A stretch of 64,000 nt of DNA from Serripes groenlandicus (lineage: Eukaryota > Mollusca > Bivalvia > Cardiida > Cardiidae). The notes beneath the pieces were generated by a model. It saw only the letters and a program-made list of their open reading frames with translations, did not search any database and was not told the DNA's origin. The position numbers and the translations under genes were made by a program. The stretch's first letter is position 1; every line of letters starts with the position of its first letter. Below, in pieces: positions 7,101 to 22,100 of the stretch. Location: assembly GCA_031761405.1 (NCBI GenBank), contig JASEVX010000083.1, positions 559,456 to 623,455 on the forward strand. The letters are read 5' to 3'.

Positions 7101-10100
7101 GGACTGCGCAGGCTGATCAGAGTCGATAAATTACGCAGAGGCCATAATGTTGGGTTTCTCGTGGAACGGCTCATATCTTATACATGTATGATGACATTTA
7201 TTAATCTTGCCATGCAAACATAAACATAGTAAGCATTCATCTTTGTGTATACATTTAGAGTTTAAAAATGACGAATCGATCTAGAGCTGAACAGACAGTG
7301 GGAGATATGACAAACCTGCTAACGCAGGATGTTGAACATCTGAAACACTGGATTGCTTGGATATGGGTGATCTGGTCAGTTCCAATCGAGTTCATTCTTT
7401 ACACCATGTTGCTGTACTCCGTGGTTGGATATGGTGTGTTTGCTGCCCTACTAGTCCTGTTGTTAACTCTACCATTTAATACTTACGCTGCTAAACGGGG
7501 GCTTGCGCTTTGTAAAGAGAGAGTGAACCTGAAAGACGAGCGAATTAAATTGTTAACAGAGCTTCTAAATGGTATTAAGGTAAGGAACACACTAGTTAAA
7601 TAATGCATAGATTAAAACGATGGAATCAAGATTAGTCGAAGGAAGAGATACAATCATATCAAGAAAACAGCAAAGCAGCAGTTCTAGTTGAGTAATCAGA
7701 ATTGCTACTATGTTGTCTTCAAAAGACATATCAGTACTATAGATTGAATCGAGTTTATCGATATATTCGAATTTATCACATGTTCGTGTTATCATGAATC
7801 CGAATTTATCACATGTTCGTGTTATTACGAACCCGATTTTATCACATGTTCGTGTTATCACGAATCCGAATTTATCACATGTTCGTGTTATCACGAATCC
7901 GAATTAAGCACATGTTCGTGTTAATACACATCCGAATTTATCACATGTTCATGTTATCATAAATCCGCTGTATCTTAATTATCATTTACGTAGAATGTTA
8001 AAAGAAATGTTTACTCAATGCATGCAGTGCGAAAAAGATTTAAAACAACATAATTGACTTTGACGACTAGATGTCATTATTCGTGGTGTGTATCGACGCG
8101 ATTTCAATACAACTGAAGTCTGAAATAGGAAACTGCATGAATACATTTTAAATAAGTTTTATATTTCTATTTTATAGATTCTGAAGTTTTACGCATGGGA
8201 ATTAGCATTTGGAGACAAAGTATTGCAAATTAGGGACAAAGAAATGAAAATCTTAATGAAAGAAAAACTAATAAGCATTATCATATGCATGGTGTTTGGA
8301 ATAGCGCCTTATTTTGTGAGTATTTCAAACCGTTCAACATATGATATAATACTACACACGTAGTGATTCGACATTCGCTCTTTCAAGAAATGAGTGCAAA
8401 AAGAAATATCTACAAAATTATTGTAATTTTATAAACATAGTCTGCTTATGTTTGGTCAACGTGCTATGTATGTGTACACTTATTACAAAGATGTATAGAT
8501 TCAACGTAATGACAGGTCTTAGTAATACATTGATAATATCAAACTGATACAGTAATTTAAATCCATGCTCTGACTGAAAACGTTGTTCGATCGCCAGTCG
8601 TGGCTGTCATGCTGGAGTGTCCTTGAGCAAGGCACATTTCCTAGCCTAGTACTGATTTCTTAACGGTAAGGTGAAGTTGGTGTCTAGTGTCTAGTGTAAT
8701 AGTGTTTATTATAAACGATACTGGAAACCAGAATCTAGTATCGTGTATCATAAACGATACTGGCAACTAGACACTAGTGTCGTTTAACGAACTAGATATA
8801 AAATTAATAAACTTTCAGACTCCAGTGTCGTTTAACACTAAACGACACTGGCAACCAGACACTAGTGTCGTTTAAGGAACTAGATATATAATTTTCAGAC
8901 TCCAATGTCGTTTAACACTAAACGACACTGGCAACCAGACACTAGTATCGTTTAAGGAACTGGATATATAATTAAGTGTGTGAAGTTGGCAGAGGAACTA
9001 GCTATATAATTAATCAATTGTATGACTCCAGTGTCGTTTAACACTAAACGACACTGGCAACCAGACACTAGTATCGTTTAAGGAACTAGTTATATAATTT
9101 TCAATGTCAGACTCCAGTGTCGTTTAACACTAAACGACACTGGCAACCAGACACTAGTGGCGTTTAAGGAACTAGATATATAATTAATCAATTGTCAGAC
9201 TCCAGTGTCGTTTAACACTAAACGACACTGGCAACCAGACACTAGTATCGTTTAAGGAAACGGAACAAATAATTTTCAACTTTTAGATTCCAGTGTCGTT
9301 TAACACTAAACGACATTGGCAACCAGACACTAGTATCCTTTAAGAAGCTAGATACAAATGTAATCAATTGTCAGACTCCAGTGTCGTTTAACACTAAACG
9401 ACACTGGCAACCAGACACTAGTATCGTTTAAGGAACTGGATATATCATTTTCATTTTTCAGACTCCAGTGTCGTTTAACAATAAACGACACTGGCAACCA
9501 GACACTAGTATCGTTTAAGGAACTCGATATATAATTAATCAACTTTCAGGATCATGTGTCGTTTAACACTAAATGACACTGGCAACCAGACACTAGTATC
9601 GTTTAAGGAACTATATATAATTAATAAATTTTCAGACTCCAGTGTCGTTTAACACTAAACGACACTGGCAACCAGACACTAGTATCGTTTAAGGAACTGG
9701 ATATATAATTAAGTGTGTGAAGTTGGCAGAGGAACTAGCTATATAATTAATCAATTTTATGACTCCAGTGTCGTTTAACACTAAACGACACTGGCAACCA
9801 GACACTAGTATCGTTTAAGGAACTAGCTATATAATTTTCAATGTCAGACTCCAGTGTCGTTTAACACTAAACGACACTGGCAACCAGACACTAGTGGCGT
9901 TTAAGGAACTAGATATATAATTAATCAATTGTCAGACTCCAGTGTCGTTTAACACTAAACGACACTGGCAACCAGACACTAGTATCGTTTAAGGAAACGG
10001 AACAAATAATTTTCAACTTTTAGATTCCAGTGTCGTTTAACACTAAACGACATTGGCAACCAGACACTAGTATCGTTTAAGAAGCTAGATACAAATGTAA

Positions 10101-19100: not shown

Positions 19101-22100
19101 TCTTGTTTTTTGTTCCACTCCCGTGACAAGGGCCTGTTGGCCCAAGTACTCCCCGTAATAAACGCAGCTGACTCGGGTATAAATCCGGCTTAACGCCGTT
19201 GTTCACTCCTGTCATATTTGAATGACCAATGTCGTACCGGCACGATATTCAGTTTTGAATGTCCAATGTCGTGCCAGCAAGACATTCATTTATAAATGTC
19301 CAATGTATAATGTCGTACCAGCACGACATTCATTTTTAAAATATCTACTGTCACGACATTCAATTTCTGAAAGTCCAATGTCCAATGTCGTGCAAGCACG
19401 ACATTCATTTCTGAATGTCCAATGTCCAATGTTCAATATCGTGCCACCACGACATTTCGTTTAGTGTTGTCTAACACACTGGAGTCTGAAAATTTATTTA
19501 TTATATATAGTTCCTTAAACGATACTAGTGTCTTGTTGCCAGTGTCATTTAGTGTTAAACGACACTGGAGTCTAATAACTTTATTAATTATATATAGTTC
19601 CTTAAACGATACTAGTGTCTGGTTGCCAGTGTCGTTTAGTGTTAAACGACACTGGAATCTGAAAGTTGATTAATTATATCTAGTTCCTTAAACGATACTA
19701 GTGTCTGGTTGCCAGTGTCGTTTAGTGTTAAACGACACTGGAATCTGAAAGTTGATTAATTATATATCGAGTTCCTTAAACGATACTAGTGTCTGGTTGC
19801 CAGTGTCGTTTAGTGTTAAACGACACTGGAATCTGAAAGTTGATTAATTATATATCGAGTTCCTTAAAAGATACTAGTGTCTGGTTGCCAGTGTCGTTTA
19901 GTGTTAAACGACACCGGAATCTGAAAGTTGATTCATTATATATCGAGTTCCTTAAACGATACTAGTGTCTGGTTGCCAGTGTCGTTTAGTGTTAAACGAC
20001 ACCGGAATCTGAAAGTTGATTAATTACATATCGAGTTCCCTAAACGATACTAGTGTCTGATTGCTAGTGTCGTTTAGTGTTAAACGACACTGGAGTCTGA
20101 AAGTTGACAATTATTTGTTCCGGTTCCTTAAACGATACTAGTGTCTGGTTGCCAGTGTCGTTTAGTGTTAAACGACACTGGAATATGAAAGTTGAAAATT
20201 ATTTTTTCAAGTTCCTTAAACGATACTAGTGTCTGGTTGCCAGTGTCGTTTAGTGTTAAACGACATTGGAGTCTGACAATTTATTAATTATATATAGTTC
20301 CTTAAACGATACTAGTGTCTGGTTGCCAGTGTCGTTTAGTGTTAAACGACACATGATCCTGAAAGTTGATTAATTATATATCGAGTTCCTTAAACGATAC
20401 TAGTGTCTGGTTGCCAGTGTCGTTTAGTGTTAAACGACACTGGAGTCTGAAAAATGAAAATGATATATCCAGTTCCTTAAACGATACTAGTGTCTGGTTG
20501 CCAGTGTCGTTTAGTGTTAAACGAAACTGGAGTCTGACAATTGATTACATTTGTATCTAGCTTCTTAAACGATACTAGTGTCTGGTTGCCAGTGTCGTTT
20601 AGTGTTAAACGACACTGGAATCTAAAAGTTGAAAATTATTTGTTCCGTTTCCTTAAACGATACTAGTGTCTGGTTGCCAGTGTCGTTTAGTGTTAAACGA
20701 CACTGGAGTCTGACAATTGATTAATTATATATCTAGTTCCTTAAACGCCACTAGTGTCTGGTTGCCAGTGTCGTTTAGTGTTAAACGACACTGGAGTCTG
20801 ACATTGAAAATTATATAGCTAGTTCCTTAAACGATACTAGTGTCTGGTTGCCAGTGTCGTTTAGTGTTAAACGACACTGGAGTCATAAAATTGATTAATT
20901 ATATAGCTAGTTCCTCTGCCAACTTCACACACTTAATTATATATCCAGTTCCTTAAACGATACTAGTGTCTGGTTGCCAGTGTCGTTTAGTGTTAAACGA
21001 CACTGGATTCTGAACATTATATATCTAGTTCCTTAAACGACACTAGTGTCTGGTTGCCAGTGTCGTTTAGTGTTAAACGACACTGGAGTCTAAAAGTTTA
21101 TTAATTATATATCTAGTTCGTTAAACGACACTAGTGTCTAGTTGCCAGTATCGTTTATGATACACGATACTAGATTCTGGTTTCCAGTATCGTTTATAAT
21201 AAACGATACTAGATACTAGACACTAGACACCAACTTCACCTTACCTCATTATACATAAATAACTGCGTCCGTGATATAACTGAATTATTGTTGATAAAGG
21301 CGTAAATCCCCTAATGAAACAAAACAGAAAACGTTTAATCATTTGTCTTCACTAGATGGCGTTTGCTGCCCTAGCAACCTATGTGTACTTTGACGACAAC
21401 CACATGCTGACAGCTCGCGCGGCGTTCGCGGCGTTATCAATCTTTGGTGCCTTTAGTAGAACCTTCTCTTCTTTGCCGCACACCTGGTCTCACTGTTCGA
21501 TGGCGTTTATATCCATGAAACGACTGGACGAATTCTTCAACAAAGACGACATTGGTCCTGATGATATCACCCATGAGAAATCAGGTTATTTATCTTTCAT
21601 ATAAATATTTGTCGATGAAACCTTTTATCATCCCTTCATAACATGAAAAGTACAATTATAAATATGTCTCATTGACATGTTAACAAACCGTGTACTACAT
21701 TGGGTAACGAATGTGTACCACATGTTCGTGTTTTCCTCAATGTTTTCAACAACCGTCTGTCTGGGATGCATGCGAATGTGTCTGCAAGCTAGGCAAGGTT
21801 AAAACATTATTGTTGTTTCTATAATAGCAAATGAATTAAGACACGTTTTGTTCAACATTTTGAAGATAAAGTTATATAACAATAACAAACAAAGACAACA
21901 GCGATACATTGAACTGATAAGCATCGGCGATGTTTGGTTACGCCTTTGTAACTGGTTATATTTCTTCTTTTATTGTAGCGAACGCAGTTAGTATTAACGG
22001 AGGCAGTTTCACGTGGGATCCAAAAATGGGAGCTTGCTTAAAAGAGTACGTAAACGTCCATACGCGATGTTTAATTGTTGAACTTTTTACATTTCTTGCT

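Follow-up and report, generated by a model that had tools for sequence, protein, structure and literature searches.

A 12.6-kb foldback palindrome in an intron of one ABCC1-like gene copy of the bivalve Serripes groenlandicus, and its probable origin by inverted copying of one arm

The stretch of DNA analysed here (the window) comprises 64,000 nucleotides of the 1.76-Gb genome of Serripes groenlandicus (assembly GCA_031761405.1, contig JASEVX010000083.1, positions 559,456 to 623,455 of the forward strand) and carries an ABCC1-like gene with a 12.6-kb imperfect palindrome in one of its introns. The element-bearing intron spans 8316-21355 (13,040 bp) with a GT donor, an AG acceptor and an in-frame splice, and a preliminary description of the locus was therefore right in placing the palindrome in an intron of an ABCC1-like gene that can be spliced in frame around it. 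The downstream exon, which starts at 21356, has matches to ABCC3 and MRP1 structures; an MRP1-like protein of Mercenaria can be aligned in order across window 1046-39076 (tblastn), and the top-scoring named ABCC proteins, from Mercenaria, Mactra and Mya, show 37-49% identity. The ordered alignment and the in-frame splice make it likely that the host gene is intact, as had also been proposed; against this, residues 1-140, 185-326 and 853-986 of the Mercenaria protein have no tblastn match in the window, and this proposal is therefore borne out in part. The features of the locus are as follows (positions are those of the window; L numbers denote loci fetched from the genome).

8178..8315, plus strand: ABCC1-like exon before the intron; donor GTGAGT at 8316
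8665..21245, unstranded: whole foldback element, from self-blast, with borders from the empty sites in L031-L033
8665..8750, plus strand: left terminal segment T (GGTAAGGTGAAGTTGGTG...), the end of the family; 31 bp exactly inverted at the opposite end
8751..11912, plus strand: left outer 88-bp repeat array, with ~4.3 copies of a 737-bp higher-order unit (Tandem Repeats Finder, motif count)
11913..11946, minus strand: left-arm remnant of block X, whose junction with the 88-bp array is common to the right arm; the neighbouring block S' is missing in both
11947..12824, plus strand: nested Helentron-like (HINE) insertion, truncated at one end, with 163-bp satellite-like repeats, ACGCCA microsatellite and palindromic end
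12825..13500, plus strand: core block S, left (probably derived) copy, sister to the right copy in a tree and 659/666 identical to it
13501..14658, unstranded: left inner 88-bp arrays, 301/301 and 839/853 identical to the right arm; their orientation turns near 13803-13828
14650..14665, unstranded: unique junction of the left arm with the 17-bp array, with ~3 bp of microhomology (AAA), from junction matches in fetched copies and genome and from comparison with an A end
14662..15620, unstranded: 17-bp array of the centre, inverted about an axis near 14923 (c- then c+); a 285-bp duplication lies on its right side
15629..17177, unstranded: right inner 88-bp arrays; their junction to the 17-bp array at ~15620 is ordinary for the family, from spanning matches in other copies
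17178..17843, minus strand: core block S, right (probably original) copy
17844..19105, minus strand: nested Helentron-like insertion, fuller copy, between X and S; uninterrupted counterpart point at L025 6597/6598
19106..19456, plus strand: block X of the right arm, 94.3% identical to L014 8439-8789
19457..21157, minus strand: right outer 88-bp repeat array
21158..21245, minus strand: right terminal segment T
21356..21568, plus strand, end approximate: ABCC1-like exon after the intron; acceptor AG at 21354-21355

A self-comparison of the window, the check that had been suggested for the palindrome in the form of a dot-plot, identified the element as an imperfect palindrome of 12,581 bp and returned three blocks of inverted matches, covering the outer kilobase (8665-9710 with 20197-21245, 97.7% identity), the middle part (10196-11948 with 19421-21179, 94.7%) and the inner 2.7 kb (11946-14658 with 16020-18725, 95.9%). 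These matches are far above chance level. The palindrome is real by this comparison, and its borders at 8665 and 21245 are exact to the base, as confirmed by the empty sites of three sister gene copies (see below). From the left end, the order of blocks is terminal segment T, 88-bp array, remnant of block X, 163-bp array with microsatellite, core S, 88-bp arrays and central 17-bp array, followed by the reverse. The preliminary description had taken the outer ends to be exact inverted repeats, and this is correct for the outermost 31 bp, beyond which indels follow. It had also held that every block of the left half recurs in reverse order on the right; the order is indeed mirrored, but the outer 88-bp array of the left arm is ~1.46 kb longer, corresponding to about two extra 737-bp units, and in this arm most of block X is missing, as is one end of the nested element. 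Over the blocks compared, the arms are identical at 1025/1046, 659/666, 301/301 and 839/853 positions.

The history of the insertion can be read from sites that lack it. Genome searches in this work score the best 40 candidates, and "unique" is therefore provisional wherever it is used here. Among the 40 places scored with a left-flank query, three others match over the full length at 97% (C1552:473265, C1552:285051 and C224:50695342), C1552 being the contig that also carries the window. All three of these long matches are empty: they read TTAAC-CCAT-TCATT where the window reads TTAAC-element-TCATT, so that the equivalent of window position 8664 is followed by CCAT and then by the equivalent of 21246. 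The right flank was compared in these three loci, which had been recovered with the left flank. Compared with the three empty sites, the window insertion has lost 4 bp and has no target-site duplication (TSD); had it been inserted regularly, with a 9-bp TSD, 13 bp more would be expected. Because the flanks are contiguous in the empty sites, the insert represents one event at one site. The empty loci are sister copies of the ABCC1-like gene, either paralogs or in part alleles, which are 99.2-99.3% alike mutually and 96.0-96.2% alike to the window flanks. In the two empty copies that were measured (L031, L032) the intron is 457-458 bp long; the acceptor pattern was not found in L033.

The ABCC1-like stretch is present in at least four copies (L031, L032, L033 and window 6775-22394), three of them on one 785-kb contig, and the element-bearing copy is the divergent one (96%) among these four, while the three empty ones are 99% alike. 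The 80 bp immediately before the element (window 8585-8664) are a dispersed repeat, perhaps a short interspersed nuclear element (SINE): 36/40 scored places match only there, at 84-95%.

Assembly is difficult in palindromes and tandem arrays, the contig that holds the window is 785 kb long, and a fold-back read or a collapsed repeat might have given rise to a false palindrome. However, the arms differ at 21/1046 and 7/666 positions, in array length (~1.46 kb) and through an internal deletion; the flanks agree with the empty sites, and two-ended inverted elements recur elsewhere with TSDs. The palindrome is very probably not an artefact, and we consider that an assembly error has very little chance of being the explanation.

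The classification as a foldback element in the preliminary description is supported by three features: copies with GGTAAGGTGAAGTTGGTG ends are dispersed, their inverted ends are internally repetitive, and 9-bp TSDs occur among them. With a 601-base query that spanned the left end, at least 103 match rows were obtained from the best 40 of 2467 first-look candidates, which were scored. As a lower bound from two genome searches of best-scoring candidates, family sequence occupies at least 64 places separated by more than 20 kb, one of which is the window. Twenty stretches were fetched, 17 of which have two inverted ends, while L015, L024 and L026 are without a second end in the stretch and were excluded from the TSD count. 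The fetched ends read GGTAAGG/CCTTACC or worn versions thereof, and the 17 other two-ended copies are 2.5-8.9 kb long. A perfect 9-bp TSD is present in 10/17 (L014 being counted after a 2-base shift at its damaged right end); in the rest, it is imperfect (L018, 7/9 bases) or absent (L011, L017, L022, L023, L027 and L028). Thus, the proposed search for other copies and their TSDs was positive for the family, but not for the window copy with its 4-bp loss.

The copies are modular. A ends consist of T, a short 88-bp array, a ~357-bp block and a 17-bp array, and B ends of T and a long 88-bp array, and in the fetched copies the two types occur in several pairings, mostly around a single core S'-X-S. 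A full palindrome is an unusual form for this family. Long inverted ends composed of internal tandem repeats, and the same ends dispersed at unrelated sites, are as expected of a foldback family. The FB elements of Drosophila and the TU elements of sea urchins have long inverted repeats made of short tandem units, and the family is likened to them by description only. The other option raised in the preliminary description, an inverted duplication of a satellite, captures part of the structure: a duplication is apparent, but the duplicated unit is a whole element arm including the core and a nested satellite-bearing element. In literature on foldback elements, in molluscs or in connection with palindromes and inverted duplications, and on Rehavkus and Mutator-like elements in bivalves, the titles and abstract openings listed contained no bivalve foldback family.

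Two observations concern the surroundings of individual copies. The left flank of L011 (1-544, with L029; C1185) and the right flank of L028 (8714-9901; C2) are 99.3% identical over 1,192 bp, and this common flank may reflect duplication, rearrangement at the element or redundancy in the assembly. At L027, the flanking 9-mers at 513-521 and 8247-8255 (GAACAATTA and TAATTCTTC) match at 8/9 bases in inverted, not direct, orientation.

We attribute the family to the Mutator superfamily based on the 9-bp TSD, the structure and the precedents of Tetris and Tm1. Foldback structures have arisen in more than one superfamily (PMC4079207, PMC3573991), no transposase with the ends of the family was found, and P transposases were not searched for; the family might, therefore, belong to another superfamily, for example as Galileo-like P elements. 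We regard this as unlikely because the 9-bp TSDs in 10/17 copies are inside the range of 8-11 bp given for Mutator-like elements (MULEs; PMC6446971), whereas Galileo TSDs are described as 7 bp, or 7-8 bp in one species (PMC3573991, PMC4168063). Rehavkus elements are defined by a minisatellite beside the terminal inverted repeat (TIR), a PHD-finger transposase and a 9-bp TSD, according to the sections available of PMC6446971; of these, the 9-bp TSD and tandem arrays are seen here, and no transposase was found.

The window copy yielded no coding sequence; its stop-to-stop frames of at least 150 amino acids all lie inside the central 17-bp array. Five open reading frames of the window and one of a relative gave no Pfam family above the cut-off, and no RNA family reached the gathering score in the window. 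MULE transposases are abundant in the genome, with at least 150 scored places, all above the cut-off. Because of the TSD length and the MULE genes in the genome, we infer mobilisation of the family in trans, probably by a Mutator-type transposase from an outside source. The motif TAAACGAYACT or its complement occurs 213 times in the element and nowhere else in the window, and it sits in strong hairpins (z of -5.0 for one 88-bp unit of the left outer array, which folds with a 13-bp stem, and of -6.1 for the end). It is plausible that these copies form an array of putative transposase binding sites; the Galileo authors likewise suggest multiple binding sites in TIRs (PMC3573991, as far as the available text goes). 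A recent MULE family is represented by L048 1978-4748 and L049 1946-4715, which are 2,771 bp long and 99.8% identical across two contigs, with a confirmed MULE domain; it has tandem-repetitive inverted ends of ~180 bp and 8-bp TSDs.

The element nested in both arms combines repeats of 163 bp with an ACGCCA microsatellite and an end, GAATAGGCGAGCT, that is palindromic. With satellite-like central repeats, a microsatellite and a palindromic end, it fits the description of an oyster HINE as far as PMC7492417 was available, a likeness by description only. Likewise, Cg_HINE/BIV160-type elements are described with satellite-like central repeats (~160 bp in BIV160), a microsatellite at the edge, a palindrome near one end and no TSD (PMC7492417, PMC5139131); the difference is that the nested part sits inside a foldback element, in both arms. 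None of the other 20 fetched loci contains the repeat of the nested element.

This nested insertion orders the events. When the junction between S and the nested element was used as a query, only the two arms of the window matched throughout among the best 40 places scored; the other 38 core places stop at query base 162-164, which is the edge of the nested element, with one core per locus and no pairs. The junction and the second core are thus private to the window as far as scored, which indicates that the nested insertion preceded the doubling. Moreover, both arms have the same X/88-bp junction without S', while S' adjoins X in 14/14 fetched copies with X. The two window copies of S are sisters in the tree (support 0.98; matches shorter than 550 bp were left out of the tree and the comparison) and are 98.9% alike, compared to at most 97.7% to the 12 other copies compared.

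The two junctions with the central array indicate which arm is the copy. The junction of the right arm with the 17-bp array is ordinary for the family, with 24 spanning matches of 87.5-97.5% in other copies. By contrast, the 14 spanning matches to the left junction in fetched copies are all at 74-82%, and among the 40 genome places scored none exceeds 82% end to end except the junction itself. Where an ordinary A end (L020) reads GGTCAAATTCATAACTTG, the window reads GTGTTAAATTAATAACTTG, giving ~3 bp of microhomology with the 88-bp unit. From the ordinary right junction, the unique left junction and the private nested insertion, we conclude that the left arm is the copy and replaced an A-type end. 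Most likely, then, the left arm is an inverted copy of the right arm that was made after the nested insertion.

Based on these data, we suggest that the 12.6-kb block is a foldback copy sitting in an intron of a single ABCC1-like gene copy out of at least four, that its left half arose as an inverted copy of the right half through repair of a broken element, and that it belongs to a probably Mutator-type family mobilised in trans; we assign this reading a probability of roughly 0.6. The starting point would have been an ordinary copy with one end of the short type beside a 17-bp array. A break would then have removed the short-type end together with flanking sequence, and the gap would have been filled by copying the other arm outward, i.e. 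from the 88-bp arrays through the core and the nested Helentron-like element to the terminal segment. The copied arm would finally have been joined to the 17-bp array via ~3 bp of microhomology and to the flank without a TSD. It is plausible that the TSD was lost in the same repair; since 7/17 other copies are also without a perfect TSD, a tie between this loss and the palindrome is unproven. Within the central array, a 285-bp segment is duplicated at 99% identity (window 15057-15620), and this duplication is perhaps later than the arm copying.

Alternatively, the palindrome may have formed elsewhere, perhaps on an excised element, and then been inserted whole, by end joining or an irregular transposase reaction, with a 4-bp target deletion. 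In favour of this, neither terminus is truncated and the flanks have cleanly lost 4 bp, with no TSD; if run-off copying took place on an excised linear element, it would stop precisely at the terminus. However, the unique junction occurs nowhere else among 40 places scored, and two cores occur nowhere else among the 39 loci scored (best candidates), and we consider insertion of a finished palindrome doubtful. A palindromic lineage that transposes was also looked for: the searches with the unique junction and with the nested junction returned no second copy among the 40 places scored in each. The lack of a matching TSD is reminiscent of chimeric Galileo copies (PMC3573991) and, together with other copies that are perhaps rearranged (the common flank of L011 and L028), might point to ectopic recombination between two copies in opposite orientation, by inversion or fusion. 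We judge this scarcely credible, since the flanks are contiguous in three empty sister copies and both arms carry a nested insertion and a deletion that none of the other copies examined shows, which argues that they are not two independent halves. In particular, inversion or fusion of two distant copies, which the missing TSD suggested, is excluded by the contiguous empty-site flanks unless both partners lay in the same intron.

Several observations weigh against arm copying by repair in a Mutator-type element. The window copy itself has no TSD, so that the 8-11 bp typical of Mutator is seen at the level of the family and not at this copy, and, with 7/17 other copies lacking a perfect one, such loss is frequent and could be unrelated to the palindrome. 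Internal rearrangement also occurs in other copies: array blocks are doubled in L024 and L027, L019 has two right ends, and stray S and X fragments lie outside the L016 ends. The 3-bp microhomology counts for little as evidence. In the block compared, the arms are no more than 92% alike in the satellite part of the nested element, perhaps owing to unit turnover or register. As for the transposase, the 80 MULE places compared (the top of 150) are all more than 30 kb away from any known place of the element, 10 MULE loci and 2 whole MULE elements are without the ends of the family, and no element combining GGTAAGGTGAAG ends with a transposase was found in the MULE places and loci examined.

Among known systems, close parallels occur in Drosophila and nematodes. 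Galileo, a P-superfamily element of Drosophila, has long internally repetitive TIRs that grow by tandem repeats and by inverted recruitment of internal sequence, and it has copies without a matching TSD (PMC3573991). In the available part of the same source, the proposal is that, after a break in one TIR, the other TIR serves as the template for repair and the copied tract runs into internal sequence, giving TIR1-F1-F1-TIR2. The window copy would fit this proposal at a larger scale, as an extreme TIR extension. Galileo differs in TSD length (7-8 bp versus 9 bp here; PMC3573991, PMC4168063) and in the size of its TIRs, the longest of which in D. mojavensis are given as ~1.26 kb (PMC3573991) versus arms of ~5.6-6 kb here, where the recruited part also includes the core and a nested element. 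Galileo copies flanked by non-matching 7-bp sequences have been read as recombination between copies (PMC3573991), a reading that does not fit the window copy because the empty sites show contiguous flanks. Tetris and DAIBAM of the Drosophila virilis group are non-autonomous, have a terminal domain and then a tandem array in each TIR, and were assigned to Mutator by TSDs of 8-10 bp with no transposase copy found (PMC4079207); they differ in their ~220-bp repeats versus 88 bp here, and the sections available of that source describe no whole-arm palindrome, its main text never using the word palindrome. Tm1 elements of Meloidogyne (Mutator/Foldback) have composite repetitive TIRs and mostly 9-bp TSDs without consensus and are non-autonomous relatives of a Phantom-type MULE; here, the differences are a known putative transposase copy, a ~14-bp repeat motif and asymmetric 7-bp termini (PMC3169594, available in part).

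The origin of the huge inverted ends of foldback elements has mostly been argued from families of finished products. The nested insertion, the unique junction on one side, the ordinary junction on the other and the empty-site sister genes allow the window locus to fix the order of events, with the nested insertion first and inverted arm copying second. We tentatively suggest that foldbacks can grow by one-step whole-arm copying, in which a broken element would copy its entire other arm backwards, with core and Helentron, and end joining would erase the TSD. If this is true, the window copy keeps both scars of such an event, beside sister genes with empty sites, and the recruitment process proposed for Galileo, with TIRs of up to ~1.26 kb, would be extended to ~6 kb. 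For the host, a 458-bp intron has become a 13-kb intron capable of forming a hairpin in a single gene copy, and this provides a natural test of splicing and of double-stranded-RNA responses with matched controls in the same genome.

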